Shown: positions 1 to 64,000 of the stretch, in pieces
Position numbering within the stretch: position 1 is the first letter of the stretch
Layout: the number at the start of each line of letters is the position of its first letter
Assembly: GCA_902774155.1 (NCBI GenBank)
Contig: CACYHF010000022.1
Coordinates: 38,519-102,518 of the forward strand
Reading direction: 5' to 3'
DNA length: 64,000 nt
DNA from: an uncultured Bacteroidia bacterium
GTDB taxonomy: Bacteria > Bacteroidota > Bacteroidia > Bacteroidales > UBA932
The notes under the pieces: model-generated
Database searches by the model: none
The model's input: only the letters and a program-made list of their open reading frames with translations
What the model was told of the DNA's origin: nothing
Position numbers and translations under genes: made by a program

Positions 1-2346
1 GCCATCCTGCAGTTCTACCGCCTGCCCGACACGGAAAAGGCCGTGGCCTTCACCACCACCGACGAAAACGGCGCTTTCTCCCATACCTTCACGGTAAAGG
101 GAGATTACGTGCTGGTGTTCGACAACCTGGGCCGAAAGGTGCAGCGTCGCAGCTTCACCGTTCCCGCCGGTACGGACGTGGTGGACCTGGGCGAAATCCT
201 GGCCCAGGACAACGCCGAAATGCTCAAGGCCGGCCAGGTGACGGCCATGCGCACGCTGGTGAAGATGGAAGTGGACAAGATGACCTACAACGTGGAAGAC
301 GATGTGGATTCCAAGACTTCCACCGTGCTGGATATGCTCCGCAAGGTGCCCATGGTGAGCGTGGACGGTCAGGACAACATCAGCGTGAACGGCAGCAGCA
401 GTTTTGTGGTTTACGTGGACGGCAAGCCCAATCAGATGATGAGCCAGAACGCTTCTACTATCTTTAAGGTAATGCCTGCCAGCAGCATCAAGAATATAGA
501 GGTGGTGACCAATCCCGGCGTGAAATACGACGCCGAGGGCGTGGGCGGTGTGCTGAACATTACCACCAACAAGGAAGCTACCGGCGGCGCTTCTGTGGCC
601 GATGGTTTCTACGGCACCGTGATGGCCACGGCTTCCAATCGTGGTGGCGGCGGTGGCGTGTCGGCCAGCATGCAGAAGGGCAAGTTCGCCATGAGCCTCA
701 ATGCCAACGGCATGTACAACTCCATGAACGGTACCGAGAGCGAGACGGAACGCGTGCAGGACAGCGGTTTCACCACCCGCACGGAGACCACCTCCAACAT
801 GAAGATACCCATGGCCATGGTGAACGCCAGCGCCAGTTATGAGATTGACACCCTGAACCTGGTAAGCGCCAGCCTGGGTGTAATGCACTTCGGCATGCAC
901 AACGAAAGCGGCATCACCAACACGTTTTTCACCGTTCCCGGGGCCACGGGCTTCGGCTACACGGGCACCACTTCCGGGGTGAACAACCGCACCAATATCT
1001 CTGCCGGTGCCGACTATCAGCACCTTTGGGCCAATGCCCCTGGCCGCAGCTTCGTGCTCAGCTACCAGTTCAACGGCGCGCCGGGCGTAAACAATACCGT
1101 GAACACCTTCAACGGCATTTCCGTGGCCGGTTTCGACCTCACCGACCGCAAGAGCAACGGCCGCACAGGCTCCTTCGACCACACGGTCCAGGCCGATTTC
1201 ACCACCCCGCTGAGCACCGCACTTACCCTGTCTACCGGTGCCAAGTTCATCGGCCGGCACAATTCCTCCGACCAGACCGACTATCTGTGGAATGGATCGG
1301 CCTTTGTACAGAGCGGAAGCCTGCAGTACGACTTCTACAACCGCATCGGGGCGGCTTATGCCGAATTGGACGGCAAATTCGGGGCCTTTGGCGTGAAGGG
1401 CGGCCTGCGCTATGAACACACCTGGCAGAGTTATGCTTCATCTGCCCTGGCGCAGTCTTACAGCGTGCAGTACGGCAACCTGGTGCCCACGGCCAGTGTG
1501 CAGTGGAGTCCCAGCGCCATCCAGAATATCGGCCTCAGCTACAATATGCGCATCAGCCGGCCGGGCATCTCCTACCTGAACCCTTATGTGGATACCTCCG
1601 ACCCCACGGCCCTCAGTTACGGTAACACCGACCTGGACACCGAACGCGGCCACAACGTCTCCCTGGTGTACAACTACTTCAATCCCAAGGTGATGGTGAG
1701 CGCCACCCTGCGCCACAGCTACACCGGCAACGGCATTTCGGCCTACAGTTTCTACGACGACAACAACCTGCTGAACACCACCTACGGCAACATCGTGCAG
1801 AACAGTAACACGGGGCTGAACGCCTATGTGATGTGGAATCCCACCAACAAGACGCGCATCATGCTGAACGGCGGGGTAGGGTATTCCGACATCCGCAGCG
1901 AGGTGCTGAACCAGCAGAACAGCGGTTGGGACTATCGGATTATGGCTGGCGTGCAGCAGACACTGCCTTGGGACTTGCGGCTCAGCGCAAACGTGATGAC
2001 CATGGGCCGGCGCATCTCCCTGCAGGGTTACTCTACGGGCATGTCCATGGGCATGCTGGGCCTCACCAAGAGCTTCCTGGACGACCGCCTGAGCCTGTCC
2101 CTGAACGGAATGCTGCCCATGGGCAAGGACCTCAAGATGCATATGAATTCCTACACCAAGGGTACCGGCTTCACTTCCACCAGTACCACCACCATTCCCG
2201 CTGCCTCCGTTACCTTCCAGATCAGCTGGAGTTTCGGCAAGCAGGGCAACTACCGCACCAAGAAAGCCCGCCGCGGTATCGAGAACGAGGATCAGCTGAA
2301 CAGCAGCACCACCGCCGAAAGCATGAGTTCTGTGCTAATGCAATAA
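1..2346 (+). CDS. Outer-membrane beta-barrel (TonB-receptor-like) protein, 5'-truncated
   Basis: The frame is open from base 1, so the true start lies outside the window; about 781 codons are visible. The first ~60 residues look like a carboxypeptidase-regulatory-like domain (DENGAFSHTF, YVLVFDNLG). A plug-like domain follows, with LRKVPMVSVDGQ, VVYVDGKPNQM and GVKYDAEGVGGVLNITT, which is the signature I associate with the OMP_b-brl_3 outer-membrane family. The rest alternates aromatic and polar residues like barrel strands and ends with a short charged tail. It is expected in the outer membrane, binding or importing an unknown ligand. It sits just upstream of a LytS/LytTR pair, an arrangement I recall as common in Bacteroidetes. 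The family call is fairly firm; the substrate is unknown. Confidence 0.8.
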   Translation, partial: AILQFYRLPDTEKAVAFTTTDENGAFSHTFTVKGDYVLVFDNLGRKVQRRSFTVPAGTDVVDLGEILAQDNAEMLKAGQVTAMRTLVKMEVDKMTYNVEDDVDSKTSTVLDMLRKVPMVSVDGQDNISVNGSSSFVVYVDGKPNQMMSQNASTIFKVMPASSIKNIEVVTNPGVKYDAEGVGGVLNITTNKEATGGASVADGFYGTVMATASNRGGGGGVSASMQKGKFAMSLNANGMYNSMNGTESETERVQDSGFTTRTETTSNMKIPMAMVNASASYEIDTLNLVSASLGVMHFGMHNESGITNTFFTVPGATGFGYTGTTSGVNNRTNISAGADYQHLWANAPGRSFVLSYQFNGAPGVNNTVNTFNGISVAGFDLTDRKSNGRTGSFDHTVQADFTTPLSTALTLSTGAKFIGRHNSSDQTDYLWNGSAFVQSGSLQYDFYNRIGAAYAELDGKFGAFGVKGGLRYEHTWQSYASSALAQSYSVQYGNLVPTASVQWSPSAIQNIGLSYNMRISRPGISYLNPYVDTSDPTALSYGNTDLDTERGHNVSLVYNYFNPKVMVSATLRHSYTGNGISAYSFYDDNNLLNTTYGNIVQNSNTGLNAYVMWNPTNKTRIMLNGGVGYSDIRSEVLNQQNSGWDYRIMAGVQQTLPWDLRLSANVMTMGRRISLQGYSTGMSMGMLGLTKSFLDDRLSLSLNGMLPMGKDLKMHMNSYTKGTGFTSTSTTTIPAASVTFQISWSFGKQGNYRTKKARRGIENEDQLNSSTTAESMSSVLMQ

Positions 2347-2352
2347 TTTTTC

Positions 2353-2360
2353 TAACTTTG
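2353..2360 (+). promoter_or_regulatory. Bacteroides-type -7 box (TAACTTTG) before the LytS kinase gene
   Basis: A perfect TAnnTTTG match lies in the short gap after the receptor gene. Only four bases separate it from the ATG at 2365, so the transcript would be leaderless or nearly so. Confidence 0.5.
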
Positions 2361-2364
2361 TACC

Positions 2365-3387: not shown

Positions 3388-4103
3388 GGCCCTTGCGATG
3401 CATAGTGGTGGACGACGAGCCCCTGGCAGTGAAAATGCTGGAGGCTTTTGTGGCGCGTACCCCTCAGTTGCATCTGGTGGCCTCTTTCAACGACCCGGTG
3501 GAGGCCCTTTCGGCCATTCGGTCCCAGGCACCGGAATTGGTGTTCCTGGATATCCAGATGCCGGATTTGGATGGGATGGAACTGTCCCGGATGCTCCCGG
3601 CCGATACCCGCGTAGTCTTCACCACGGCCTTCAAGCAGTACGCCTTCGAGAGCTATGAAGTGAGTGCGCTGGACTTTCTACTCAAGCCCATCCGCTACCA
3701 GAAGTTCCTGGAGGCCGTGCAGAAGGCGCAGGAATGGTTTGCGCTCAAAGATGCAGCGGCAAACCAGGCCCCTTCAGAGAAAACCGCAATCTTCCTGAAA
3801 GTGGAAGGCGTGCTCCGCAAAGTGGACCTGGCCGATATCCTCTATGTAGAAGGCATGAAGGACTATGTGATGTTCCACCTTTCATCGGCCCGGGAACCGT
3901 TGGTGACACACATGACCATGAAAGCCGTGGAGGAACTGCTTCCGCCGCAGTCGTTTATGCGCATCCACCGTTCTTACATCGTAGCATTGTCTCATATCAG
4001 CTCCGTAAGTGCCGGAGGAGACCTCAAAGTGGGCCCGGCTCTGCTCCATGTGTCGGATGCTTATCATGAGGCGTTCGATGCCTACTTAGCTGCGTGGAGA
4101 TAA
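3384..4103 (+). CDS. LytTR-family response regulator
   Basis: A 239-residue regulator with an N-terminal receiver domain (VVDDEPLAVKML, then LVFLDIQMPDLDGMEL with phospho-Asp at residue 56, and a conserved Lys in DFLLKPIRYQKF). The C-terminal LytTR DNA-binding domain has ILYVEGMKDYVMFHL and FMRIHRSYIVAL. It is translationally coupled to the kinase gene. It probably regulates the preceding outer-membrane gene or itself, but I see no clear LytTR-type repeat nearby. A strong terminator follows. Confidence 0.93.
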   Translation: MRPLRCIVVDDEPLAVKMLEAFVARTPQLHLVASFNDPVEALSAIRSQAPELVFLDIQMPDLDGMELSRMLPADTRVVFTTAFKQYAFESYEVSALDFLLKPIRYQKFLEAVQKAQEWFALKDAAANQAPSEKTAIFLKVEGVLRKVDLADILYVEGMKDYVMFHLSSAREPLVTHMTMKAVEELLPPQSFMRIHRSYIVALSHISSVSAGGDLKVGPALLHVSDAYHEAFDAYLAAWR

Positions 4104-4126
4104 GTATTTGATTGTAAGAGAGTAAT

Positions 4127-4164: not shown

Positions 4165-4201
4165 GTAATCGGCTGTGAATCAGCCTTTTGTCTCCACGCG
4201 C

Positions 4202-6559
4202 TTATTTCACGGCGATTTCCTTGACGGGCTCGGCGGGCAGGCACACCGGGTTCACGGGCCAGGACTGGGCCTTGGCCTGCTTGAAGGCGGCGGTGGCGCG
4301 GAGATCGGCCACAGAGGCGCCGAAGTGGGCAGTGTAGTTGCCGGCGGCCATTTCCCAGGCGCTGGTACCTTCGTTGAAGGAGGCCAGGGTGTAAGGGCAG
4401 ACCGTCATGGTGAGCGTCTGACTTTCACCGGGGGCCAGTTCCTTGGTCTTGGCGAAGGCCTTGAGTTCGCAGGCGGGTTTCACCAGGCCGCCTTCCGGGG
4501 CGGTGATGTACAGCTGAACGGCTTCCTTGCCGGCCACCTTACCGGTGTTGGTCACGGTGATGCTGGCGGTTACGCTGCCGTCCTTGGCCACTTTCACCAC
4601 AGGCTTGCTATAAGCGAAGGTAGTGTAGCTGAGGCCGTAGCCGAAAGGATAGCTCACGTTCTTGCCGGCGGTGGTGAAGTAGCGGTAACCTACCCAAATG
4701 CCTTCGGCGTAGTCGGTGTAGTCGATATTCTTTCGGAGCACGCGGGGGGTGAAGCCACCGCCCATGAGGGCTGCGAGGTCGATGGAGTTGCCACCCTTAT
4801 AGTCGTACGGGAAGTTGGCGGAGGAGGGGATATCCAGATAAGCTACGGGGAAGGTCATGGGCAGCTTGCCGGAAGGGTTGGCCTTGCCGGTGAGGACGTC
4901 GGCCACTGCGTAACCACCTTCCTGACCGGGAGTCCAGGCCAGCAGGATGGCGTCCGGGATGTTCTTCCAGGAAGCGGTCTCGATGACACCGCCGATGTTC
5001 AGTACCACAACCAGCTTCTTGCCGGCAGCGTGGTAGACGTCGGCCAGAATCTGGAGCATTTCGCGCTCCTGACCGGTGAGGGTCCAGTCACCGTCGGCGG
5101 CTTTGCGGTCGTCGCCTTCGCCGGCGTTGCGGGAAATGGTGAATACGGCAATATCAGTGGCTTTTTCCTTCTTCTGGATGAAGCTGCGGGAAACTTCCAT
5201 CTCCGGGACCACGGGATCTCCCAGGAGGATGCCCAGGCCATTGCCTTCGGTATTGTTGCGGAGCCGGGTCTTGGTGAAGGCGATGTACTGCTGGTACCAG
5301 GTTTCGATATCGCTGTCCACTTCCAGACCGTTTTCGCGCAGGCCCTCGGCCACGTTGCGGGTGTAGGCTTTGTTCACGTTGCCGGAACCGGTGCCGCCGG
5401 CGATGAAGTCATAAGAGCCGGTGCCATAGAGGGCCACCTTCTTGGTGCATTTGCAGAAAGGCAGGGCGCCGTTGTTCTCCAGGAGCACCAGGCCTTCCGG
5501 AGTGGCTTCACGCACCAGCTGGGCATGGCCGGCGAGGTCGGGCTTGTTGCTGTATTTGTAACCTTGGAAGCGAGGGGTGCGGACGATGTATTCCAGCATA
5601 CGGCGCACGTTGCGGTCCAGGTCGGCCACGGGCAGGGAACCGTCCTTAACGGCGGCCACGATGCGGTCGATTTCGTTCTGCATACCGGGTTCCATAAGGT
5701 CGTTGCCGGCGATGACAGCCTTCACGGTGCCTTCCTTGTTGCCCCAGTCGGTCATCACGATACCGCCAAAACCCCATTCATCGCGCAGGATGGTGGTGAG
5801 GAGGCCCTTGCTCTGCTGGGTGAATTCCCCGTTGAGCTTGTTATAGGAGCTCATCACGGTCCAGGGATCGGACTCCTTCACGGAGATCTCGAAGCTCTTG
5901 AGGTACATTTCACGCAGGGCACGTGCGTTCACGCGGCTGTCGTTCTGCATACGGTTCACTTCCTGGTCGTTGGCGGCGAAGTGCTTGATGGAAACGCCCA
6001 CGCCGTTGCTCTGGATACCCCTTACATAGGCGGCGCTCATCTTGCCGGCCAGGAGGGGATCCTCGGAGAAATACTCGAAGTTACGGCCGCAGAGCGGGTT
6101 GCGGTGCAGGTTCTGACCGGGAGCCAGGAGAACGTCGGCGCCGTATTCCTTCACTTCTTCACCCATAGCGGTGGTGAGTTTCTGCACCAGGTCGGTGTTG
6201 AAGGTGGAAGCCAGCACGGTACCTACAGGGAAGCCGGTGCAGTAGAAAGTCTGGTCCGTACCGGGACGGGTGGGGTTGATACGCAGACCGGCAGGGCCGT
6301 CGGCCAGCACGGTGTTGGGAATGCCCAGCCGATCGATGGCGCGGGTGGTACCGGCAGCGCCGGAAACCAGGGAGGCGTCGGAGGCGGTGAGGGAACCGGC
6401 GGTCATGGAGCCCCAGCCGCCGCCTACTACCAGCGTGGCTTTCTCTTCCAGGGTCATGGCCTTGAGGACATCGTCAATGTTGTCCTTGTTCAGTTTGGGC
6501 TGAGCCATCAGGGAAGTAGCGCACAGGGCAGCAATGCTAAACACGAAAAATTTCTTCAT
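4202..6559 (-). CDS. GH3 beta-glycosidase (beta-glucosidase/xylosidase type), secreted
   Basis: A 785-residue GH3 enzyme. It has an SPI signal peptide (MKKFFVFSIAALCATSLMAQ), the N-terminal GH3 barrel with KHFAANDQEVNR, and nucleophile Asp about residue 270 in GGIVMTDWGNK. The C-terminal alpha/beta domain has an acid/base Glu candidate near residue 481 (NAGEGDDRK), and a fibronectin-III-like end starts near SYPFGYGLSYTTF. It is expected in the periplasm, removing terminal beta-linked glucose or xylose from oligosaccharides. It sits beside the hybrid regulator gene and has its own -7 box at 6594-6601. Specificity cannot be read from sequence. Confidence 0.92.
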   Translation of the reverse strand: MKKFFVFSIAALCATSLMAQPKLNKDNIDDVLKAMTLEEKATLVVGGGWGSMTAGSLTASDASLVSGAAGTTRAIDRLGIPNTVLADGPAGLRINPTRPGTDQTFYCTGFPVGTVLASTFNTDLVQKLTTAMGEEVKEYGADVLLAPGQNLHRNPLCGRNFEYFSEDPLLAGKMSAAYVRGIQSNGVGVSIKHFAANDQEVNRMQNDSRVNARALREMYLKSFEISVKESDPWTVMSSYNKLNGEFTQQSKGLLTTILRDEWGFGGIVMTDWGNKEGTVKAVIAGNDLMEPGMQNEIDRIVAAVKDGSLPVADLDRNVRRMLEYIVRTPRFQGYKYSNKPDLAGHAQLVREATPEGLVLLENNGALPFCKCTKKVALYGTGSYDFIAGGTGSGNVNKAYTRNVAEGLRENGLEVDSDIETWYQQYIAFTKTRLRNNTEGNGLGILLGDPVVPEMEVSRSFIQKKEKATDIAVFTISRNAGEGDDRKAADGDWTLTGQEREMLQILADVYHAAGKKLVVVLNIGGVIETASWKNIPDAILLAWTPGQEGGYAVADVLTGKANPSGKLPMTFPVAYLDIPSSANFPYDYKGGNSIDLAALMGGGFTPRVLRKNIDYTDYAEGIWVGYRYFTTAGKNVSYPFGYGLSYTTFAYSKPVVKVAKDGSVTASITVTNTGKVAGKEAVQLYITAPEGGLVKPACELKAFAKTKELAPGESQTLTMTVCPYTLASFNEGTSAWEMAAGNYTAHFGASVADLRATAAFKQAKAQSWPVNPVCLPAEPVKEIAVK

Positions 6560-6593
6560 AAGATATTGAAAATTGGTTATAGTCTCACTACTG

Positions 6594-6601
6594 CAAACTT
6601 A
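6594..6601 (-). promoter_or_regulatory. -7 box (TAAGTTTG) of the GH3 gene
   Basis: On the minus strand this matches TAnnTTTG and lies 34 bases before the GH3 start codon. The GTTCAAA motif at 6640-6655 lies about 40 bases further upstream. Confidence 0.5.
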
Positions 6602-6639
6602 CACAAAACCAGTTTTGCTTCCAAATACATAGTATATTT

Positions 6640-6655
6640 GATAAAACATTTGAAC
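6640..6655 (-). promoter_or_regulatory. Candidate hybrid-regulator site upstream of GH3
   Basis: Read on the minus strand this is GTTCAAATGTTTTATC. It matches 15 of 16 bases at 29290-29305 upstream of the CE1 gene. The second half-site seen in the other copies is only weakly present here. The link to the hybrid regulator is inference. Confidence 0.4.
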
Positions 6656-6671
6656 ATGTGATTAAAATTTA

Positions 6672-6798
6672 GTTGGCAGGAAGGTACTATTTCCCAAACC
6701 TGTGGCCACCCTCGGCCTCATAAGAGGGAGGGGCCCGCCGCGAAGCGGTGGGAGGGGTCGCGAAGCGACGGTTTGGGGAATAGTACCTTCCTGCTAAC
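6672..6798. repeat. MITE/REP-like palindromic element
   Basis: Terminal inverted arms 6676-6700 and 6770-6794 pair over 25 bases with one mismatch, and pairing continues weakly to 6672 and 6798. Inside are two small hairpins with identical GCGAAGC cores (around 6734-6752 and 6758-6769). A central stretch, 6696-6729, recurs within the mtaB gene at 43570-43603. The right arm covers the stop codon of the hybrid regulator (6794-6796). It could act as a terminator or mRNA-end stabiliser, but its size and arms suggest a mobile or dispersed repeat. Confidence 0.75.
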
Positions 6799-9700
6799 CT
6801 ACATATTCGGATGGAGGAACGCCGAACTGTTTTTTGAAGGAGGTGGAGAAGTGGGAGAGGGTGTTGAAGCCCGTCATCCAGGCAATTTCACTCATGTTGT
6901 GCTTGCCTTCTTTCAGAAGGTCGGCGGCGCGGTTCAGTTTGTAACGCTTGAAGAAGACGGAGGGATTCTCGCCGGTGAGACCCTTTACCTTGTAATAGAA
7001 CTTGGTGCGGGAAATCTTCATCATTTCGGTAATCTGGACAATATCCAGATCGGCATTGGCCAGCTCCTTCTCCATAAGTTCGTAGAGTTCCTTCATGAAG
7101 GCGGCATCGCGCGGCGAAAGCGCCTCAGGCTCAATTTCTTCCGTGGTAGTGACGGCACCTAGCTGGCGATGCAGTTTCTCGCGGTTTTCCAGCAGGGACT
7201 TCACCAGGGCCAGGAGGTAGGCGGGCTGGAAGGGCTTGGTGACGTAGGCATCGGCCCCCTTGTCCAGGCCCTGCACCTGGTTCTCCACGGCTACTTTGGC
7301 GGTGACCAGCACAACGGGAATGTGGCTTAGCTGGAGGTCTCCCTTGATGCGGGCGCAGAGTTCGTAGCCGTCCATGCCGGGCATTACTACGTCGCTGATA
7401 ATCAGGTCCGGAATATCCTCCGTCATTCCTTTTAGGGCCGATGTGCCGTCGAAGTACAGGGATACCTTGTACTGCGGCTTCAGGAGCACCTTCAGGTAAT
7501 TGGCGATGTCGATGTCGTCGTCCACCACGGCGATGTGCCGTTTACCGTTCTGGGCATCCGGTTCATCGGCTTCGATGCTCTGGGCCAGGGCGTGGCTGGG
7601 CAGCTGCTGGGGCTGGGCGGTGCTGCGTTCGTCCTCCGTGTAGGAGGTAGCACTCACGGGTACTACCAGTGAGAACACGGCGCCGCCTTCCGGCTGGTTC
7701 CAGGCCTTGATATAGCCGTGGTGCAACTGGGCCAGAGCACGGGCATAATACAGGCCGATACCGGAGCCGGTGACCTTCTTACCGGGCTCGGCCTGGTAGA
7801 AGCGCTCGAAAATCTTCTCCAGTTGGTCTTCCGGGATGCCGGGACCATTGTCGGCCACGCTGATGCAGGCCCATTGGCCGTCCGTGTCTTTTTCGGTGAG
7901 GGGGAAGCGGGCAGCGGCGGCGGAGCGGGAAATGACGTCGAAGCGCAGTGAAACCTTCCCGCCCTGCGGCGTGAACTTGAGCGCGTTGGACAGGAGGTTC
8001 ATCACCACCTTCTGCACTTTGTCTGCATCCACCCACATAGTAAAGGGCTCTTCCAGACCACTGGCCGTGAGCTCGATGCCCTTGGACTGGGCGTTGAAGC
8101 GGAAGAGGCTCACGCTATCCCGCAGGGGTTCTACCAGGTCCATCTTGGCTACTTTGAGCTGCAGCTTGCTGTTGCCGATGCGGTTGAAATCCAGCAGCTG
8201 GTTCACAAGCGAGAGCATCCAAGTGGCGTTGCGGCGGATGATTTCCACCAGCTGGTGGTCCTGTCCCTTCACGCCCTCAGAGGCCGATAACTGCTGCGCC
8301 GGCCCGGCAATCATAGTGAGCGGGGTGCGGAATTCGTGCGCTACGTTGGAGAAGTAGTCCATCTGGATCTTGTTCAGCTCTTTTTCGGCTTTTTCGGCCT
8401 CTTCGGCCTTTTCCCGTTCTTTCCTAACCTGGTGGATGCGGCGGGCGGCTTCCTTGCGCACCTTGCGCACGTGACGGTAATAGGTGTAGGTGATGGCCAG
8501 GAAAATGAGCCCCAGCAGTATCCACAGACAGATGGCCCAAGTGGTTCTGAACCAGGGCGGAAGCACCCGGATGGACAGGCTTTCCTGTGTTTCGGTGATG
8601 GTATGGCTGGCATTGGCTATGCGCACCCTCAGCGTGTAGTCTCCGGCGGGCAGGTTGGCGAAATAGGCGTTGTGGCGGGTGGCGATCCTGACCCAGTCGC
8701 GGTCGAAGCCCTCCAGTTTATAGGCGTAGCGGATTTGCTCGTACGGGCTGTAATCCAACGCGGCAAAGGCAATGTCAAAGGCATTCTGGTTGTGCCGGAT
8801 GGTGACCAGCGGCTTTTGGGTGAGGGGCTCTTCGATGGGACCGCCCGGAGCAGGCTGCACCAGCTGGTTGTGGATGCTCAGGCTCTCGAACACCAGCGGA
8901 ACGGTGCGCTTGGCCGGGGCGTCCAGCGGGTTGAAGGCGGTGACGCCGTGCGTGCCGCCGAACACCAGCGTGCCATCCGGCAGTACGCAGGAGGCCCTGT
9001 CGTTAAACTGGTCTCCGCCGATGCCATCGGCCTCGAAATAATGGACGAAACTGCTGTTGGTCCTGTCGTAGCGGCCCAGGCCGTGGAGGGTGGAGACCCA
9101 AATGTTGCCCTGGCGGTCTTCCTCGATGGATGCAATGTCGGGGCAGGGAGCTCTGTCGATGGGCCGACGGTGGCCGTTTTCACTGAGGATGAGTCCGTTG
9201 GCGTAGGTGCCCAGCCAGAGATTACCGGCGCTGTCTTTGCGTAAACAATTGGGTATCACTACTGAACGGCGGATACAGGCAGCGTGGTCCTCGGCCGTGA
9301 CGGGGTTGGGGGTGGCCTCCAGCGTATAGGTGTTCACCTGAACGGGGAACTGGTTGTAGCAGGCGGCAAGCAGGCGGCCGGGTTCCTGCATGATCAGGTC
9401 CGTGACGAAGGTCCAGCTATCCGTGGCCGCCACAGAAACATCCTGCCGGCTGTGGTCCCTTTTGTCGTAGCGCACCAGCGTGCTGCTGAAGCCGCCGATC
9501 CAGATGGCGCCTCTGTCATCCTCTGTAATGGCTAGGGGATAGGCGGCATAGACCAAGTCTTTGGAGCTGAGGCGTTTGCCGTCCCAAAGGCAGCGCAGGG
9601 CGCGCACCTTGTCCTGGAACAGCAGCCACAGGTCTCCGTCGGAGTCGCAGTACACTTTGGATGCGCGGATATAACCTACCTCGGAGTCCGGAATCAGGTG

Positions 9701-10858
9701 GTCTACGGAAACGGACTGGAGGGTTTTGGCGGCCAGGTCGAAGCGGAACAGGCCCTCGCGCAGGGTGGTGATCCACAGGCCGCCGTCCTGGTCCGGGCAT
9801 AGCGAAGTGACGTTTTTGCCCTTCAGGGCCTCCATGAGCACCTTATTGCCGCTGAAAAGGCCCTGCTCCTGATAGGAAACGTGATAGCCTTGGTCGGTGG
9901 TGCCGAACCACAGGTTGCCGCTGCGGTCGCGGAAGATGCTGCGCACTTCCGAGGCGGGAACGTCGAAGGGGAAGGAAGGATGGCTCTGGTGCAGAAGCGT
10001 TTCCCGCACCCGGTTATAATAGAAGAATCCCTTGCCGATGGCATTGAGCAGGATGCCGTTGTTATCTACAGCGAAAATAAAGTCTATATCGCTCTCCATC
10101 AGGCGTTTATTGGACCGAACAATAGCAGGGAGCTCTTTCCATGCGTTGTTGCGGGTGTCCAGGATGTGGAGTTGTCCCATACCGGAGAGCCAGAGTTCCT
10201 GCTGGCCGAAAGCGCACAGATGGTAGGTCTGGACGGGGAGGGGAATGGCGGCCTGGGGCGAAAAGTCCGGGATGGAATAACTCTTGAGGGAGAAGCCATT
10301 GTCGGACAGGACCCAGAGCCGCTTGTCCAGGATAAGGGCCGATGCCATGAAGCTGTTGAAGTCCCGGATCACGGGCTGCAGACTCTCTGTCTCCCGGTTA
10401 TAGCGGAATAGGATGTTGCCGCTGGAAAACAGGATCTCTCCGGAGGGGGTTTCCAGAATCTGGTTGATATTGAGCCCCTTGCTGGGGAAAGGAATGCGCT
10501 GGAAAGAGCAGTCCCGGCTGCTGCGGAGGGCCACTCCGTTCACGCTGCCCGCCCACAGGTCTCCGTTCTGGGTGGCCAGAATGGCCGTAATCTGATTGTC
10601 CGGGAGGCCTAAGGTGTCGTCGGTGGAGTAATACTGGTAGTATTCGTCTCCGGTAAACTTGTTCAGGCCGCGCTGGGTGGCTATCCAGATATGACCGTCA
10701 CGGTCTTGTGCAAAGCCGTTCACGCGCTGGTTGGACAGGCGCGGGGACAGTATTACGCTTCCTTCCGGAACGGTGGGAAGGTCTCTCCCTTCATATTGTT
10801 TACAGGATACCAGCGCCAGGACGGCGGCAAGAGTCCGGCTGATTCTTTTCCAATTCAT
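6794..10858 (-). CDS. Hybrid two-component system sensor/regulator (HTCS)
   Basis: A 1354-residue one-protein signalling system. A lipoprotein-like signal (MNWKRISRTLAAVLALVSC) is followed by two beta-propellers of Reg_prop repeats (DRDGHIWIATQRGLNKF, DRSGNLWFGTTDQG, DRQGNIWVSTLHGLGRY). Then come a Y_Y_Y domain, a membrane segment near residues 770-795, a histidine-kinase core (VAHEFRTPLTMIAGP, His near 841) and an ATPase with GTGIGL-like glycines. A receiver (IISDVVMPGMDGYEL, Asp near 1155) and an AraC-type HTH end the protein. I place the start at 10858, not 10906, because the signal peptide starts there and a -7 box sits just upstream. Family knowledge: such proteins sense oligosaccharides in the periplasm and activate the neighbouring PUL. 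Confidence 0.95.
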   Translation of the reverse strand: MNWKRISRTLAAVLALVSCKQYEGRDLPTVPEGSVILSPRLSNQRVNGFAQDRDGHIWIATQRGLNKFTGDEYYQYYSTDDTLGLPDNQITAILATQNGDLWAGSVNGVALRSSRDCSFQRIPFPSKGLNINQILETPSGEILFSSGNILFRYNRETESLQPVIRDFNSFMASALILDKRLWVLSDNGFSLKSYSIPDFSPQAAIPLPVQTYHLCAFGQQELWLSGMGQLHILDTRNNAWKELPAIVRSNKRLMESDIDFIFAVDNNGILLNAIGKGFFYYNRVRETLLHQSHPSFPFDVPASEVRSIFRDRSGNLWFGTTDQGYHVSYQEQGLFSGNKVLMEALKGKNVTSLCPDQDGGLWITTLREGLFRFDLAAKTLQSVSVDHLIPDSEVGYIRASKVYCDSDGDLWLLFQDKVRALRCLWDGKRLSSKDLVYAAYPLAITEDDRGAIWIGGFSSTLVRYDKRDHSRQDVSVAATDSWTFVTDLIMQEPGRLLAACYNQFPVQVNTYTLEATPNPVTAEDHAACIRRSVVIPNCLRKDSAGNLWLGTYANGLILSENGHRRPIDRAPCPDIASIEEDRQGNIWVSTLHGLGRYDRTNSSFVHYFEADGIGGDQFNDRASCVLPDGTLVFGGTHGVTAFNPLDAPAKRTVPLVFESLSIHNQLVQPAPGGPIEEPLTQKPLVTIRHNQNAFDIAFAALDYSPYEQIRYAYKLEGFDRDWVRIATRHNAYFANLPAGDYTLRVRIANASHTITETQESLSIRVLPPWFRTTWAICLWILLGLIFLAITYTYYRHVRKVRKEAARRIHQVRKEREKAEEAEKAEKELNKIQMDYFSNVAHEFRTPLTMIAGPAQQLSASEGVKGQDHQLVEIIRRNATWMLSLVNQLLDFNRIGNSKLQLKVAKMDLVEPLRDSVSLFRFNAQSKGIELTASGLEEPFTMWVDADKVQKVVMNLLSNALKFTPQGGKVSLRFDVISRSAAAARFPLTEKDTDGQWACISVADNGPGIPEDQLEKIFERFYQAEPGKKVTGSGIGLYYARALAQLHHGYIKAWNQPEGGAVFSLVVPVSATSYTEDERSTAQPQQLPSHALAQSIEADEPDAQNGKRHIAVVDDDIDIANYLKVLLKPQYKVSLYFDGTSALKGMTEDIPDLIISDVVMPGMDGYELCARIKGDLQLSHIPVVLVTAKVAVENQVQGLDKGADAYVTKPFQPAYLLALVKSLLENREKLHRQLGAVTTTEEIEPEALSPRDAAFMKELYELMEKELANADLDIVQITEMMKISRTKFYYKVKGLTGENPSVFFKRYKLNRAADLLKEGKHNMSEIAWMTGFNTLSHFSTSFKKQFGVPPSEYVG

Positions 10859-10862
10859 ATTG

Positions 10863-10870
10863 CAAATATA
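10863..10870 (-). promoter_or_regulatory. -7 box (TATATTTG) of the HTCS gene
   Basis: A TAnnTTTG match on the minus strand ends four bases before the preferred HTCS start codon at 10858. This supports that start and suggests a very short or absent leader. Confidence 0.5.
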
Positions 10871-10897
10871 TCTCATTTTCCAGACTATAGAAGGGGT

Positions 10898-10924
10898 TTT
10901 GAACAAGAAGAAAGGTTTTTGAAC
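10898..10924. promoter_or_regulatory. Direct repeat of TTTGAAC, candidate HTCS operator
   Basis: TTTGAAC occurs at 10898-10904 and 10918-10924, exactly 20 bases apart, in the divergent gap between the HTCS gene and the esterase-SusC-SusD operon. A pair with the same 20-base period lies at 29290-29316. Position and direct-repeat form suit an AraC-type HTCS output domain; binding itself is inferred. Confidence 0.5.
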
Positions 10925-10997
10925 AAATAAAATATTTTAATAAAACGCGCAAGAAAGCATTTGAAAGAGCGGAAAAAGGGAGGCCGATTATTCTTCG

Positions 10998-11005
10998 CAA
11001 CTTTG
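10998..11005 (+). promoter_or_regulatory. Possible -7 box (CAACTTTG) for the SusC/SusD operon
   Basis: A one-mismatch TAnnTTTG match lies 22 bases before the ATG at 11028. It is the best candidate for the promoter of the eight-gene plus-strand operon. Confidence 0.35.
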
Positions 11006-11027
11006 CATAGGTTAAAAACCACAGAAC

Positions 11028-12491
11028 ATGACACTGAAAACCCTTTCTGCTTTTCTGACGCTTTCGTTGCTGCTCACTGCCTGCGGACAGCCCGCTCGCC
11101 GCAGCTCTCAGTGCGTCATGGCCCTGGAAACATCGGCCAAAGTATCCACCGTCAACACGCTTTCCGGCCCGGTCGCCGGTTATGTGGATGACGGCGTTTT
11201 CATTTACAAAGGCATCCCTTACGGCCAGGCCGAACGTTTCATGCCGCCCACCGATCCCGAACCCTGGAAGGAGGTTCGTGCCAGCCGCGCTTACGGCCCG
11301 GTTTCTCCCCACGGAGAACGCATGGGTTGGCGCGACGACAACCAGGCCTTCGCCATGCACTGGGACGACGGCTACCCCGGCGAAGACTGCCTGCGGGTGA
11401 ATGTCTGGACCTCGGCCATCAAGGCCGATGCCAAGATGCCCGTGATGGTGTGGTTGCACGGCGGCGGCTTCAGCGAAGGTTCCAGCCAGGAGCAGATTGG
11501 TTACGACGGCACCAACCTGGCCCGCGACCACGGGGTGGTGGTGGTTTCCCTGAACCATCGGCTCAATGCCCTGGGTTTCCTGGACCTGAGCGCATACGGT
11601 GCCAAGTATGCTTTCAGTGGCAATGTGGGCATGATGGATATTGTGAAGGCCCTGGAATGGGTGAAGGGTAATATCGCCAATTTCGGCGGCGACCCTTCCA
11701 ATGTGACCATCTTCGGCCAGAGCGGCGGTGGCGGCAAAGTGAGCACCGTCATGGCCATGCCCAGCGCCAAAGGCCTGTACCACAAGGCCATCGTGCAGAG
11801 CGGTTCCATCACCACGCTCATGAATCCCAAGTATTCCCGTCGCATCGGCGCCGCCACGGTGTCGCATCTGGGCATTTCTCCCGCCAAGATCGACGAGATG
11901 GCCTCCGTTCCCTATGAAAAACTGCTGGCCGCTTATCGGAAAGCTGTGGAAGACGTACGGGCCGAAGCCCAGCAGGACGGTGCCCTTCCCACCAATTTCC
12001 TGGATATGATCCTTTTCGGCCAGCTTCCCGTAGCCGACGGTGAGGTGATCCCTTTCCAGCCCGCTACGCCGGAAGCCCTGGCGCTTTCCAAAGACATCCC
12101 TGTTATTATAGGTACGGTATATAACGAATTCACACCTAACCAGGAAGACCCTATCTTTCGTCCGCTGGCCCTCCAGCAGGCCGCCGACCGCACGGCTGCC
12201 GGCTGCGCGCTCGTATACCTCTATCGCTTCGACTGGGCCACCCCCGTCCTGGACGGAGTAATGGGCAGCACTCACTGTTTGGAAATTCCTTTCGTCTTCG
12301 ATAACGTCCTCCTGCACAGGACCTTCACCGGCGGGGCCGATGATGCCGTGCAACTGGGTCACCGCATGAGCAGTGCCTGGGCCGCCTTTGCCAAAACCGG
12401 CACGCCCGCTGCGGAAGGTCTCCCGGAATGGACGCCCTATCCTGCCAATATGAATTTCAATATAGAATCTACAATCAACAATATTAATTAA
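11028..12491 (+). CDS. Type-B carboxylesterase lipoprotein
   Basis: A 487-residue carboxylesterase of the PF00135 type. It has a lipoprotein signal ending LLLTAC, a GIPYGQAERF region, the oxyanion segment WLHGGGFSEGS, nucleophile Ser232 in FGQSGGGG, and a His in STHCLEIPFVF typical of the catalytic His. It probably hydrolyses acyl or aryl esters on plant polysaccharide fragments at the cell surface or in the periplasm. It is the first gene of the plus-strand operon, 17 bases before the SusC homologue. A second type-B carboxylesterase sits at 31676-32992. Confidence 0.9.
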   Translation: MTLKTLSAFLTLSLLLTACGQPARRSSQCVMALETSAKVSTVNTLSGPVAGYVDDGVFIYKGIPYGQAERFMPPTDPEPWKEVRASRAYGPVSPHGERMGWRDDNQAFAMHWDDGYPGEDCLRVNVWTSAIKADAKMPVMVWLHGGGFSEGSSQEQIGYDGTNLARDHGVVVVSLNHRLNALGFLDLSAYGAKYAFSGNVGMMDIVKALEWVKGNIANFGGDPSNVTIFGQSGGGGKVSTVMAMPSAKGLYHKAIVQSGSITTLMNPKYSRRIGAATVSHLGISPAKIDEMASVPYEKLLAAYRKAVEDVRAEAQQDGALPTNFLDMILFGQLPVADGEVIPFQPATPEALALSKDIPVIIGTVYNEFTPNQEDPIFRPLALQQAADRTAAGCALVYLYRFDWATPVLDGVMGSTHCLEIPFVFDNVLLHRTFTGGADDAVQLGHRMSSAWAAFAKTGTPAAEGLPEWTPYPANMNFNIESTINNIN

Positions 12492-40521: not shown

Positions 40522-40583
40522 ATGGTCGAATTTTGTCATATTGTCATTTGTTCCCTTTGGGTGGGGTTCTCCGTTTGGGGTTG

Positions 40584-40591: not shown

Positions 40592-40684
40592 CTGCCAATT
40601 TTTCACTCGTACGATAGCTTATCGGCCTTGAAATTGTTCAAAAGGTCGAAATTTGCGAAAAATTGCGAATTCTTGGAAAAAAGA

Positions 40685-40692
40685 GTTACCTT
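40685..40692 (+). promoter_or_regulatory. -7 box (TACCTTTG) of the AraC regulator gene
   Basis: A TAnnTTTG match 20 bases before the ATG at 40713. Just upstream, TTGCGAAAAATTGCGAA at 40649-40665 is a short direct repeat that could be an operator. A TATCGGCC word at 40619-40626 lies in the middle of this gap. Confidence 0.45.
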
Positions 40693-40712
40693 TGTCAAAA
40701 ATTCGCATCCTT

Positions 40713-41645
40713 ATGGGGAATGAAGCTTTGCAAACCATAGATATCCGGCGCATTCTGGCGCTGGCACCGGTCATTGACGAGTATTCCCTGGGCACAGATT
40801 TTATCCTGGGAGAAGTAAGCGGTAAGCGGGTAGAAAAGAGCCAGGCCATCCTGTCTATGCTCAAATACCCCCTCCGTTTTGACGGCTATATTATCTTTTT
40901 CCTCCGCAGCGGCCACTTTACCATAGACCTGAACCTGAATTCCTATGAGGTAAAGCCTCAGTCCCTGCTGGTGAACGTGCCGGGAAACATCATCAAGCTC
41001 ACTTCGTATGCAGAGGATCACATAGGAGATGCCCAGCTATACTTCGTGCTGGCCTCCAGGGCGTTTATGAGTGGCATCCGCTTCGACTTCAACAAAGTGT
41101 TCCAGGAGAGCCTGAGCCTCCTGAAAAACCCCTGTATTACCTTAAATGAGGCCGATTTGGCCCTGGCCGAGAACTATTTCACCCTGGCCCGCGAGGTGGT
41201 GCTGAGCGACAAGGAAAACAAAAAGGAGATGCTGGGCTCGTTGGTTACCTCCTTCACCTATATGGTCATGGACGTATGCACGCGCGCCCTCAATGAAGCC
41301 CGCAAGACGCAGACGCCTTCGTCGGCCCGGGTTAACCAGCTCTTTGAGCGTTTCATCGCGCTGGTTACCGAGTACCATAATACAGAGCGGGGCGTGGCGT
41401 TTTATGCCGATAAGCTCTGCCTTACGCCCAAGTATCTGTCCAAGCTGGTAAAACAGGCAAGCGGACGCAGTGCGCCCGCCTGGATTGATTCATTCGTTAT
41501 TCTGGAGGCTAAGAATATGCTCAAATATTCCGACAAAACCATTAAGGAAATCGTGTACGCGCTGCATTTCCCCAACCAGTCGGTCTTCTACAAGTTCTTC
41601 AAGGCCCATACGGGCATGACCCCCTCGGAGTACCGGAAAGGCTAA
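40713..41645 (+). CDS. AraC-family transcriptional regulator
   Basis: A 310-residue regulator. The start at 40713 is preferred because of the -7 box just upstream. The N-terminal ~190 residues form a cupin-like sensor domain (YIIFFLRSGHFTIDLNLNSY, PQSLLVNVPGNII). The C-terminal ~100 residues form a double HTH (YADKLCLTPKYLSKLVKQAS, IKEIVYALHFPNQSVFYKFF, TPSEYRKG). It is divergent from the TolC/HlyD/permease operon and probably controls it in response to an effector bound by the cupin domain. Confidence 0.93.
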   Translation: MGNEALQTIDIRRILALAPVIDEYSLGTDFILGEVSGKRVEKSQAILSMLKYPLRFDGYIIFFLRSGHFTIDLNLNSYEVKPQSLLVNVPGNIIKLTSYAEDHIGDAQLYFVLASRAFMSGIRFDFNKVFQESLSLLKNPCITLNEADLALAENYFTLAREVVLSDKENKKEMLGSLVTSFTYMVMDVCTRALNEARKTQTPSSARVNQLFERFIALVTEYHNTERGVAFYADKLCLTPKYLSKLVKQASGRSAPAWIDSFVILEAKNMLKYSDKTIKEIVYALHFPNQSVFYKFFKAHTGMTPSEYRKG

Positions 41646-44622: not shown

Positions 44623-47600
44623 TCCTTGCTGATTTTTCCTTGTTCATCTACGTTCAGTACCACGGTGCGGGCACTTTGCAGGATTTCCTGGCTCATCATA
44701 TTTTCCCGTTCTTCCCGCTTGGCCAGTATCATCTGGAACAACTGGCGGAAGGAGTTGAAGTCCCGTTGGTAGGAGATACCGCCGCCGTGGCGTTGGCTGT
44801 TGTCCAGGAAGGAGGTGTATTGGTCGGCCGAATGGGTAAACAGTTTCACTCGCAGCGAACCGCTCCGGTTCAGCTTGATTTCGATATCAATGTCGCCCAC
44901 CACCTCGTTGGTGGAGGTGCCGCCCAGCATTTGCTTGTTGCCCACCGTGCCGTTCACGAGGACGCGGTTGTTGAAGAGCTGGGTGCTCAGAGCTACGTCG
45001 AAGATGTTGCTGCCGGTCTGGGTGGTCTGGTAATTCAGGCCCATGTCCAGCGGAATGTTCAGTTTCTCGAAGATGTTGTTGATCTGCCCGGACATGATAC
45101 TGGACATATTGGAGAAGAGGGCATCGGTTCCGCTGGTGGTGATGCCCGATTCTTCGGCCGGCAGGAAGTTGCCGGCGATGAGCAGGTACACAAACTGCTT
45201 CTGCACCTTGTCCACCGTGTTCAGGGCGCCTTCCACCTGCGCCTGCGTGGCAGGATTCAGGTCCGGGATATCGATGCTGAAATTGATTTCCGGGTTGCTC
45301 AGGCGGCCGGTGATGTTGATGCCGCAGTTCACGGTGCGGCGGCTCACGGACGATTCATCGGCGATGAGGGTGGACAGGCTGGCCTTGGTAGTGTACAGGC
45401 CCTTCACGTCCAGGTCGGTGTCCCAGACGTCGCCGTTGAAGCGGATGGTACTGCCGTCCTGGATGGTGAAACGGCGGCTTACCAGGTTCATGGCCGAGAA
45501 GAGGAAGCTTCCCTGGGTGATGTTGTAATCGCCGTTCAGGCCGAAACTGCCCGTGGCCGAGCGGCTGGTAAGTTCCACGGTACCGTTGCCCTGCGCATTA
45601 AGTGACGATTCGCTTACGTCCATATGCAGCTGCATCTGCGGCGTGGCGCGGACGCGCAGCTTGATCTGGAAGTCACTGCTCTTCTTTTTCTCCCGGGAAC
45701 GGGCCGCCATCATAACCTCGTACGGGTCTTCTTCTCCCTCGTTGGGCGCTTCCTTGAAGCTGAGCATTTCCTTGGATCGGCCGCTCCCTCCGGAGTTCAG
45801 GCCGATATGCAGTTCTCCGCTCCGGGAAGTGGTGGCATCCACGTCCAGCAGCAGGCGGTTGATGGGACCGGTGATATCGGCCCGGCCGGTGGCGGTGGCG
45901 GTGCCCCAGAGCATAGGATTCACGCCCTGCGGCAAATCCAGCACCTTCATGTCCGTGATTTGCACGTGCGTATCCATGGCGAAATCCTTGAATCCGCCCA
46001 GAAGGATGCTGCCGCTGAGTTTTCCTTTTCCGGAAAGGCCGTCGCTCAGTTTGACGTTGCGGAAGAAAAGGCCTTCGTCGTTCAGTTCCACGTCGCCGGC
46101 CATGTCGTAGGGAACGCGGGTGTAGTCCAGTTCCAGGGTGCCGTCCTCAATGCGCAGGTTCCGGCTGGACAGATGGGGTTTATCCAGCGTGCCGTCCACG
46201 CCTACCTCGCCGCTCAGATAGCCGCCGAACTGGCTGAAGAGGCTGTTCAGCAGCGGCGCGGCATAGCCCATATTGAAGTGGTCCAGCTTCACGTCGGCGT
46301 GCATGGCGCGGGTGCCGGGCTGAATAGAACCTTCACCCTGGATATTCTGACGTCCGTTGAGCTGATTCTCCACGCGGGCGACGAAGCGGCCGTTTTCCTC
46401 GTCCCAGACGCTGGAAAGGTACAGCTGGCCCATCCGGTGGCCGGCTACATACGTGGAGTCACAGGTGATGGACGACAGCAGCCCCAACGTGGGGGAGGAA
46501 GGCGAAATGATGGTGGCCTGTCCGGTGGCGTATCCTTCCAGGGAAGGCAGCGTTCCGCTGATGGTATTCACCAGGCCGATATCAAATTTATCCATCTGGA
46601 TGGAAAGGGTATCGGCCTTATGGGGAGAAATGCCTCCGTGGATGAGCAGGGTTTCGTCGTCGTGCCGGGCGGTGAGCCGCTGGATGTCCAGGTTGCCGCC
46701 GCTATAGGTGATTTCTTCCGAGGAAAGACCCCAGCCTTTGCCCTTGTAGTAGATGTTGGAGGGCAGGGCCCTGGCGGCGATGGCCAGTCCTCCTTCATCG
46801 CGCATCACATCGGCCGATAAATAGACCTGGGCCCGCGTCTGTTCCTCCTCGCCGTTGTCGAAGGTGTATCCGATACCCAGTTGATTATCATCGGCAAAGA
46901 GGGAAATCTGGTTGTTCAGGATATGGGCGCCGGACAGGGAAATCTGCTTGCCGGTGATGGTGGCGGTCTGTACCAGGTTGCCGTTGTCGAAGGACAGCAG
47001 GAAATCCTTGACGAATTTGTCGTCGTAGGCCAGGCGGCCGGACTTGATGGTGGCGGTCACCAGGCCTTCATCGTTCACCTGCAGGCGGGCACTGGTGCTC
47101 TTTTCAATGTACAGGCCGGGCACCAGGAAAGTGAGCAGTCCCTGGGCCGATTTCACATTCAGCGAAAGGTCGTAGGTGGCGCCGTTCCAGGGCTTCGGTT
47201 TCTTCTCTATCAGGGCGGGAACGTCGCGCTCCAGCACCAGGTAACGGAGATCGTTCAAGAAGGTTCCGGGGCCTTCGTCGCCCACGTAAGTGCCATCCAG
47301 GAAGCCGGACTGCAGCCGGATGCGGTTCACATTGTCGTTGGCGTGGGCCTGGAGGGTGATGTCGCCGATATCATATCGGCCGGTGCTGCTGTCCAGCGAG
47401 ATGTCGCTGATGGTCATATCGCCCAGGAAGTCTCCCTTCCGGGTGCGCAGGATGTTGGACATGGCCTGGAAGCTGATGGTGGAGCGTTCCCGCTTGTCCA
47501 GATGCAGGGCGTGGAGGTTGGCATAACCCAGCGAGGCGTAGAAACGGTAGGCGGCGTTCCGGGTGTCCGTAGACAGGTTGAACATACCCTGGAACAGGAG

Positions 47601-62472: not shown

Positions 62473-63702
62473 TTATTTCGTTCTGCCGGTATAGGCATCA
62501 ATGCCGGAGGTGTCGTACTTTTGGGAGAAGAATTTATCGGCCGCCGTTCCCAGGTCTTTTTTCCAAGGGTCGGGGCCGCCGGCGCTCTGTACCACCCACA
62601 TCCGCAGCTGCTTCTTGTGCCAGTTAACCGTGCACTGAGTGCCCCAGGCGCCGCCGTGGCCGAACCAGGCGTCCTCACTGTCTTCCTTGGGGGTGTTCAG
62701 GCCCAGGGAATAGCCTTCCATCCCCGCGGGACGGGTGCTCTGGGCCAGGATGGACTTGACGGTTTCTTCCTTCAGGATACGGACGCCGTTGTCTCCTACG
62801 CCCAGATTCATAAGCATCTTGTAGAATTTGATCTGGTCGCGGGCGGTGGTCCACAGTCCGGCGCCGGCCGATGCAAATACGTGGGAATCGTTGTACGGAC
62901 GCTGCTGGTTGTCCATTTCCTCGCGCCACTGAGCCGGTGCATCCTGCACGTAGCGGTACAGTTCAATCTTGTTCGCAATCTGCTCGTCGGTGGGCCAGAA
63001 CCAGGTGGCTTTCATACCCAGCGGGTCCAGGACGGTCTGTTTCAAGTAATCTTCCCATTTCATACCGGTAACCACCTGCACGATGGCGGCGCCGATGTCA
63101 ATGCCGGTGTTGGAATACAGAACCGCGGTACCGGGTTCGAACATAATGGGCGAAGCGGCGGCGATGGATGCCACCTGGCGGATGGGTGCTCCGCCGGACC
63201 AGCCGCCACCGCGTACATCGGGCCGTTTGGCGCTTACCTCAAAGGGGAAGCCGCCTGTGTGGTTGAGGACCATCCGGACCGTGAGCGTATTCTTGGCTTT
63301 GTGCAGGGTCTGGGTGCTGTCGTTCTTCTGGTCCAGAACCCAGAGTTCGGCAAACTCCGGCAGGTATTTGGACACCGGGTCGTCCAGGGAAATCTTCCCT
63401 TCCTCCACCAGCTTGGCGATGGTAACGCCGCAGAAACCCTTTGTCTGCGAGCACTGCATATACGCGTTGTCCAGGCCGATCTTCCGGCCCGCCGCCACGT
63501 CGGCATAACCGATGCAGCAGGTTTCCTGCACGCCGTCATTGTAGAAGATACTGATGGCCCCGGGCAACTGGCCGCTCTCCACATAGGGGGTCAGGACTTC
63601 CCGGGCATATTGGGTCTTGGATTCGACAACTTTCTTCTGGGCCTGAGCCGTGGTGCCGGACAAAAGCACCAACGCCACTATAGCATACAGGATTCTTTTC
63701 AT
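62473..63702 (-). CDS. Serine hydrolase of the beta-lactamase/DD-peptidase (class C) fold
   Basis: A 409-residue secreted protein (signal LYAIVALVLLSGTTAQAQ) of the PF00144 type. The SxxK motif is in MQCSQTKGFCG, the Tyr motif in LYSNTGIDIG, and a late HGGAWGTQ replaces the KTG motif. Such proteins act as esterases, D-aminopeptidases or peptidoglycan enzymes as well as beta-lactamases, so resistance should not be assumed. It lies directly upstream of recG with no gap and has its own -7 box. Confidence 0.9.
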   Translation of the reverse strand: MKRILYAIVALVLLSGTTAQAQKKVVESKTQYAREVLTPYVESGQLPGAISIFYNDGVQETCCIGYADVAAGRKIGLDNAYMQCSQTKGFCGVTIAKLVEEGKISLDDPVSKYLPEFAELWVLDQKNDSTQTLHKAKNTLTVRMVLNHTGGFPFEVSAKRPDVRGGGWSGGAPIRQVASIAAASPIMFEPGTAVLYSNTGIDIGAAIVQVVTGMKWEDYLKQTVLDPLGMKATWFWPTDEQIANKIELYRYVQDAPAQWREEMDNQQRPYNDSHVFASAGAGLWTTARDQIKFYKMLMNLGVGDNGVRILKEETVKSILAQSTRPAGMEGYSLGLNTPKEDSEDAWFGHGGAWGTQCTVNWHKKQLRMWVVQSAGGPDPWKKDLGTAADKFFSQKYDTSGIDAYTGRTK

Positions 63703-64000
63703 ATCAAGTTCATTTTAGTGTTTCAGAAGCAAACATACGCAAAAAACGCGAGTTTTCAAACAGTTCGCTACCCCGGCCCGCCGTGAGGACTGAAAACGTA
63801 GAAATCCTGTCTTGACGTGATGCTATAGCCTATGGTCAGGACCAAAAGTACACGATTCCAGGCTTGTCGCATAGCCGGAAAAACTTTGTCCAAAATTATT
63901 ACTAACTTTCCTCTATAAATCAAGATATGACCGCTGTCCTTTGTTGGCGAGTGGGCATCGCTGTGCGTAGGGATCCGCGAAAGTCCTGCATCCGTCTCGG
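63703..64000. other. Terminal 298-base stretch without a supported gene
   Basis: It contains the serine-hydrolase promoter at its left end. An ATG at 63927 opens 24 codons to the window edge, but the peptide shows no recognisable motif, so I do not call a gene. The rest shows nothing I can identify. Confidence 0.5.
63730..63737 (-). promoter_or_regulatory. -7 box (TATGTTTG) of the serine hydrolase gene
   Basis: A TAnnTTTG match on the minus strand, 27 bases before the ATG at 63702. Confidence 0.5.

Follow-up and report, generated by a model that had tools for sequence, protein, structure and literature searches.

YATCGGCC, a dispersed asymmetric word over-represented throughout genomes of a rumen clade of Candidatus Cryptobacteroides

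Short words scattered over whole chromosomes are known from several bacterial lineages. The FtsK-orienting polar sequences (KOPS) and architecture-imparting sequences (AIMS) are dispersed words of about 8 bases that are strand-biased. The cyanobacterial highly iterated palindrome HIP1 (GCGATCGC) and the alternate cyanobacterial HIPs are spread genome-wide through coding and non-coding DNA at about 1 copy per kb, with a strength that varies by lineage; HIP1 is a palindrome that usually occurs together with methyltransferases matching it, and a ratchet based on mismatch repair has been put forward to explain it (PMC4390886). The DNA uptake sequences (DUS) of Neisseriaceae and uptake signal sequences (USS) of Pasteurellaceae are dense, unpolarised words; DUS have 10-12 bases, their dialects differ by one letter, their reader is the pilin ComP, and the kingDUS has 5918 copies in 2.4 Mb (PMC3630211). 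Word drive by uptake bias was modelled earlier (PMC1939737). Chi of Escherichia coli has an observed/expected ratio of 2.29, with about 0.2 copies per kb in phages and host (PMC3784561), and is nearly confined to the leading strand (PMC8022716); AddAB stands in for RecBCD in several groups (PMC1193525). Here we analyse the word YATCGGCC, detected in a 64,000-nucleotide stretch (the window; contig CACYHF010000022.1, positions 38,519 to 102,518) of an uncultured bacterium whose genome (G000; 2,428,135 bases in 88 contigs, 92% complete) belongs to the genus Candidatus Cryptobacteroides. The original prediction, made from the letters of the window, compared the word with HIP1 and uptake sequences, and dispersed words of such type are its closest look-alikes. 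The word shares features with HIP1, uptake sequences and Chi, but for each of the three it lacks one or more of the defining features. The exact words were not found as whole words in the literature searched, which mostly excluded subscription papers, and none of the papers listed there dealt with the word or the genus. With moderate confidence we take YATCGGCC to be a dispersed asymmetric recognition word, each copy of which would have a weak, uniform fixation advantage through a resident DNA-reading protein.

Excess of the word beyond codon use

By exact count the heptamer ATCGGCC occurs 114 times in the window (59 on the plus and 55 on the minus strand; first copy at 597-603 and last at 63474-63480, both minus), against 11.5 expected from base composition, and 93 of the 114 copies are YATCGGCC (CATCGGCC, 26 on plus and 29 on minus; TATCGGCC, 19 on each strand). 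The window-wide over-representation first reported is thereby confirmed. ATCGGCC is the most over-represented 7-mer of the window under Markov models of orders 1 to 3, which predict 13.7, 18.1 and 29.4 copies. Orders 4 and 5 predict 48.7 and 99.5 because hexamers inside ATCGGCC are themselves raised, and a codon-aware null was therefore taken as the main test. For the first 17 kb, the contrast with the near-word GTCGGCC that had been given as 28 to 6 holds with corrected figures: 31 copies of ATCGGCC (26 of YATCGGCC) against 8. GAC, said to be at least as common as GAT, outnumbers it by 793 to 343 in the window's called genes, and the word occurs in all six frame and strand classes, as claimed, although their shares are far from even (48, 32, 22, 5, 1 and 1).

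The codon tests covered the window and 400 kb of further G000 stretches, in which a simple codon-usage caller called 348 genes with 425 kb of coding sequence; some bases counted as intergenic may be coding. Codon use explains part of the raw excess, the synonymous-codon shuffle within genes giving 153 copies (152.8 ± 10.2) in the 425 kb. The observed number is 721, and a shuffle that also keeps neighbouring bases expects 161.4 ± 6.5. ATCGGCC ranks first among all 7-mers under both shuffles, which leave a 4.5- to 4.9-fold excess. The frame NNA TCG GCC holds 187 copies where the codon null expects 7.6, orientation relative to the gene is balanced (344 sense, 377 antisense), and the 40.3 kb outside called genes hold 48 copies where an order-2 model built on that DNA predicts 7.6, a 6-fold excess. 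Codon preference, to which we give almost no credence, is refuted by the two shuffles and the counts between called genes. The original prediction had held codon use alone to be insufficient and had named codon-aware shuffling beforehand as what could refute it; the 4.7-fold excess that such shuffling leaves upholds it. The same order-2 comparison gives intergenic copies of 17 against 2.1, 5 against 1.3, 5 against 1.9 and 1 against 0.6 in four other genomes with the word (G019, G028, G037 and G057), and 1, 1 and 0 against 1.3, 1.1 and 1.0 in three word-less genomes.

The whole G000 genome carries 2699 copies of YATCGGCC (1.11 per kb) and 288 of the reversed word used as control, so the enrichment does not vanish outside the contig, the other outcome that had been named as refuting it. 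The reversed-word control is sensitive to composition (one genome, G074, stands at 4.4-fold by the control and 1.7-fold by the codon shuffle). The excess of YATCGGCC is real, genome-wide and not due to codon use, and both its density and its 4.7-fold codon-aware size are of HIP1 type.

Distribution among relatives and one-letter dialects

From a scan with the RecG of the window the 80 top-scoring loci in named records were taken; four of them bear the name Candidatus Cryptobacteroides, and the closest of the 80 come from Bacteroidales assemblies of rumen origin. Wherever RecG identity is at least 84%, in 22 loci, ATCGGCC stands at 2.3-16.8 times the order-2 expectation; in the remaining 58 it stands at 0-2.0 times. 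By whole-genome counts YATCGGCC reaches at least 4 times the control word in 14 of 101 genomes of the genus, evenly drawn from a larger group. Outside the genus, none of 293 genomes of the same order exceeds about 0.3 copies per kb (sizes rounded), against 1.11 in G000; seven of them (G118, G238, G261, G269, G356, G375 and G380) show 6- to 14-fold ratios at densities of about 0.02-0.11 per kb because the control word is rare there.

In a RecG tree of 50 genomes, nine genomes with a strong word (G000, G005, G019, G028, G037, G038, G054, G057 and G077; metagenome assemblies, 80-96% complete) form one clade with support of 100/100. Three genomes near this clade (G003, G064 and G069) have the word at about 3-fold, and G073, G076, G036 and the pair G063/G074 are placed away from it. 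Within the codon-shuffle sample, which did not extend to G005, G036 and G063, the ATCGGCC excess was confirmed in G073 (3.8) and G076 (4.2), and is 1.7 in G074.

Some genomes prefer a word that differs by one letter. G057 has 107 copies of ATCGGCA against 26 by the codon null and 78 of ATCGGCC against 24.5, and given the first six letters its last letter is A with an odds ratio of 7.9 and C with 1.1. ATCGTCC is raised 3.7-, 3.5- and 3.8-fold in G037, G054 and G076, and G073 makes similar use of ATCGGCC (3.8) and ATCGGCA (3.5). The family can be written YATCGKCM. The word is strong in one rumen clade and in some other species, with the one-letter dialects ATCGGCA and ATCGTCC.

Three repeats of other kinds were seen in the sampled stretches, which carry L numbers and are not random draws. 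In L036-L040 of G037, 50 copies of the palindrome CCTGCAGG were counted over both strands, where the order-2 model predicts 9.8; since it does not rank among the leading words under the codon null, its excess is probably due to codon use. In L046 (G053:C2:20001-40000), a 20-base seed recurs ten times within positions 8272-8998, at a spacing of exactly 78 bases, as a tandem array. In L214 (G073:C3), about 6239-8109, there is an array of clustered regularly interspaced short palindromic repeats (CRISPR) with 29 identical 36-base repeats; 22-mers of four of its 28 complete spacers had no match in viral_contigs.

Layout, occupancy and turnover of copies

A longer motif was rejected, the strong deviations outside the seven letters in G000 being confined to positions -1, -2 and +8 (χ2 116, 37 and 82), followed by -3 and -24 (27 and 26). 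G is rare at -1 (0.45 of expected), C is rare at -2 (0.61) and G is frequent at +8 (1.54). Near-words are also raised in coding sequence (TTCGGCC 2.3-fold, ATCGGCA 1.6, ATCGGCT 1.3).

The copies are laid out as if independent of one another. Their spacing in G000 is near-exponential (variance over squared mean 1.06 over 753 gaps), counts per gene are Poisson (χ2/n 0.985 over 345 genes), and the genes lowest and highest by third-position GC both exceed expectation (lowest sixth 1.13 per kb against 0.21, highest 1.96 against 0.41). Orientation has no block structure; a same-strand run in a printed list of copies was not borne out by the sequence itself. Over 24 segments of G000, in which the origin was not located, the strand split has no surplus variance (χ2 13.0, df 24) and does not correlate significantly with GC skew (rho 0.20, p 0.35). 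In six other word genomes, with the three dialect words pooled, p for the strand split runs from 0.04 to 0.91, G028 alone standing at 0.04.

Available sites were defined as protein positions where the word fits by silent choice, in four codon arrangements, with expectations from codon usage. In G000 the word fills 350 of 620 X-Ala-Asp sites (0.565, against 0.106 expected), 187 of 659 X-Ser-Ala sites (0.284 against 0.012), 140 of 163 Ile-Gly-(C) sites (0.859 against 0.357) and 24 of 162 Gly-Arg-(T) sites (0.148 against 0.012). Occupancy is likewise far above expectation in G019, G028 and the L062 group, slightly raised in G034 and near expectation in G082 and G068. Where six letters match and the seventh is silently free, the odds ratios for the word letter at positions 0-6 are 8.2, 4.6, 4.0, 17.4, 7.9, 11.6 and 7.0 in G000 and range from 7 to 46 in the L062 group (4 to 69 cases each) and from 0.5 to 1.9 in three word-less genomes pooled. 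Such log odds, about 2 in G000 and about 3 in the L062 group, would equal a scaled advantage of that size.

A word without function, being a mutational sink or the endpoint of a sequence-specific repair bias, for example through a bound factor that lowers mutation, would fit the observations that all copies, between genes as within them, behave alike and independently, and that proteins are little altered. It would require a several-fold lower mutation rate across seven bases, and we regard it as very unlikely. The word is kept at each of its seven positions, and a repair bias acting on a single letter was therefore rejected as insufficient. A drive at the protein level was rejected too, Ala-Asp and Ser-Ala pairs standing at 1.12 and 1.10 of expected in G000 and 1.24 and 1.27 in G019, with 0.93-1.32 and 0.95-1.15 in five word-less genomes.

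Neighbouring copies have no effect on occupancy: the slope on ln distance to the nearest other copy is -0.018 over 1516 available sites in G000 (bootstrap -0.115 to 0.081) and -0.060 over 618 sites in G019 and G028 (-0.179 to 0.076). A strongly range-limited function was therefore rejected; redundant sites stay filled, which argues against a function that reaches hundreds of bases with strong diminishing returns. Mild diminishing returns are compatible with these data.

Single copies are held more often than their surroundings. Third codon positions are unchanged in 0.691 of cases inside the word and in 0.570 for the same codons outside it (6071 cases; the sequence pairs are not independent). 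The most closely related strong pair, L062/L067, keeps 40 of 42 words, where 0.60 of all 7-mers are kept; the figures are 10 of 11 against 0.48 for G000 and L082, and 22 of 40 against 0.30 for L063/L065. In L076/L077, of the G057 dialect, ATCGGCA is kept in 30 of 38 cases and ATCGGCC in 18 of 27, against 0.57. The word sites are weakly held, with turnover.

The poorest 20-kb stretch sampled in G000, L016 (G000:C13:1-20000), has 0.70 word copies per kb. From about 5.7 to 20 kb it is GC-poor and contains two genes of PD-(D/E)XK transposase type and a HipA-like gene, and its two large collagen-repeat/DUF4988 proteins are encoded without any word copy. This single case fits recently arrived DNA without the word.

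Within the window, five copies lie outside called genes, and three of these (42806, 57742 and 57857) fall in listed open reading frames (ORFs). An intergenic TATCGGCC lies on the plus strand at 40620-40627, one base from the position originally given (40619-40626), between called genes 38929-40539 (minus) and 40653-41645 (plus), with no ORF of at least 200 aa over it. A minus-strand ATCGGCC at 10982-10988, between called genes 6794-10906 (minus) and 11028-12491 (plus), is overlapped by the uncalled ORF 10800-12362 (minus). An overlapping pair reported at 46804-46815 exists four bases away, at 46808-46818; it is an inverted pair of a plus-strand CATCGGCC (46808-46815) and a minus-strand ATCGGCC (46812-46818), with the 10-base palindrome ATCGGCCGAT at 46809-46818. 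The word itself is not a palindrome; the window has a single ATCGGCCGAT, and there are 11 overlapping pairs in a set of 771 copies. The region 4202-35348 of the window is a polysaccharide-utilisation region with SusC-type plug and SusD genes, a hybrid two-component regulator, three GH3-type genes, two carboxylesterases and five PF00756 esterases.

Candidate readers of the word

A ratchet of HIP type, in which a DNA methyltransferase would modify all or part of the word and strand-directed mismatch repair would then cause its build-up, has been proposed for HIP1 by Elhai (PMC4390886), and the density of the word is HIP1-like. The HIPs are palindromic and usually have their methyltransferase, whereas YATCGGCC is asymmetric and no methyltransferase is shared among the families searched. 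Profiles of five DNA methyltransferase families (PF07669, PF00145, PF01555, PF02384 and PF02086) had no match in the 92%-complete G000, which tells against the methylation role first suggested and makes G000 appear almost free of classical restriction-modification. Nothing exceeded the cut-off in G077 either; G019 has only PF07669, G037 only PF00145 and the other five strong genomes 1-3 families each, so that none of the five families is common to all nine, a search that leaves other families and the missing 4-20% of the assemblies uncovered. The incomplete genomes and the other enzyme families mean that this negative is no exclusion; even so, we find the ratchet quite unlikely.

A word-preferring DNA uptake without a pilus, with recombination of the imports spreading the word as in Neisseria DUS, seems to us unlikely. 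The density and one-letter dialects are DUS-like (PMC3630211), polarity is absent, as in uptake sequences, ComEC was found in 20 of 20 genomes tested, and the poor stretch L016 resembles recently arrived DNA. DUS are read by a pilin, whereas the pilus/type II secretion ATPase PF00437 exceeded the cut-off in none of the nine strong genomes, a result that speaks against the pilus-borne form of the uptake role in the original prediction; among the 18 genomes searched it did so in two (G016 and G068), both without the word. The word is also compact, at 7-8 bases and without long flanks, and clustered copies are held as well as lone ones, though one per fragment should suffice. The ComEC match spans one stop codon in 16 of the 20 genomes, with open frames of 356-477 aa (for example G000:C19:8157-8909), and may represent a short form whose end the profile overruns.

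Chi, as read by RecBCD or AddAB, is like the word short, asymmetric and over-represented, and AddAB is present: the AddAB-type PDDEXK_1 domain (PF12705) exceeded the cut-off in 40 of 40 genomes, and AddB and AddA proteins were recovered. The word differs in an excess of 6.3 by a comparable order-2 model, a density of 1.1-1.8 per kb and a lack of polarisation, and it differs from KOPS and AIMS in having no strand bias. The lack of polarity had been taken to argue against a Chi- or KOPS-like role; it stands, and it excludes only strongly oriented forms and otherwise weighs against such roles. On a possible enrichment in core over acquired DNA, the counts cover the 345 genes as a whole, over which copies are Poisson, and L016 is the one poor island.

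The small advantage of each copy would be about equal from copy to copy, with log odds of about 2 in G000 and about 3 in the L062 group, and could come from weak selection or from recombination with biased replacement. It would depend on a DNA-reading protein that resides in the cell, is conserved across the genus and has a drifting preference. On general grounds the AddAB helicase-nuclease is the best-placed, leading candidate, and would respond to the word as to a Chi, so that the cell's own DNA is spared, but we hold this identification doubtful. Among the 31 genomes for which addB loci were fetched, addA adjoins addB in 21 of the 22 outside the strong nine (in the exception, G063, the contig ends nearby). 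The two genes are apart in all nine strong genomes, by about 19-28 kb in G028, G037, G038 and G077 and on separate contigs in G000 (C2, L231, and C19, L251), G005, G019, G054 and G057. In both the AddB and the AddA tree the nine form one group with G073 and G076 apart; the separation of the two genes is therefore a mark of the clade and does not prove a role.

Several observations weigh against a recognition word read by AddAB. Strand polarity is absent, and occupancy bears no sign of diminishing returns. ATCGGCC stands at 0.7-1.3 of the codon null in eight relatives with AddAB or close kin, three just outside the clade (G034, G082 and G095) and five more distant (G067, G068, G053, G078 and G088; the PF12705 search took in the first three, G067 and G068, and not the last three). 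The trees show no transfer of addB that could have brought the word to G073 and G076, and this source was rejected. Conservation at single sites is modest, with 27 of 809 words having a higher conservation ratio, and there is little or none in three of seven pairs: L061/L066 (10 of 21 kept, against 0.41), L064/L065 (2 of 9 against 0.38) and L068/L072 (2 of 12 against 0.30). AddAB is a candidate reader only. It is possible, although we would not count on it, that YATCGGCC represents a further kind of word, distinct from methylation-linked palindromes, from uptake sequences read by a pilus and from a polar Chi, with a Bacteroidota protein as its putative reader and an equal, independent advantage for each copy; silent sites would then fill far towards saturation and dialects would arise by single letters. 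Repair and nucleoid binding, both named in the original prediction, are possible roles of the word.

Only a few of the dispersed words of bacteria are understood, and each time the key was the reader, be it a pilin, a methyltransferase or RecBCD/AddAB. This large, mostly uncultured genus of the gut and rumen has strong-word, dialect and word-less species side by side, which would make the reader findable by comparative genomics and testable by binding assays. With an effect size of about 2 log-odds units per copy, the word may provide a clean case for telling selected words from those that are merely driven.

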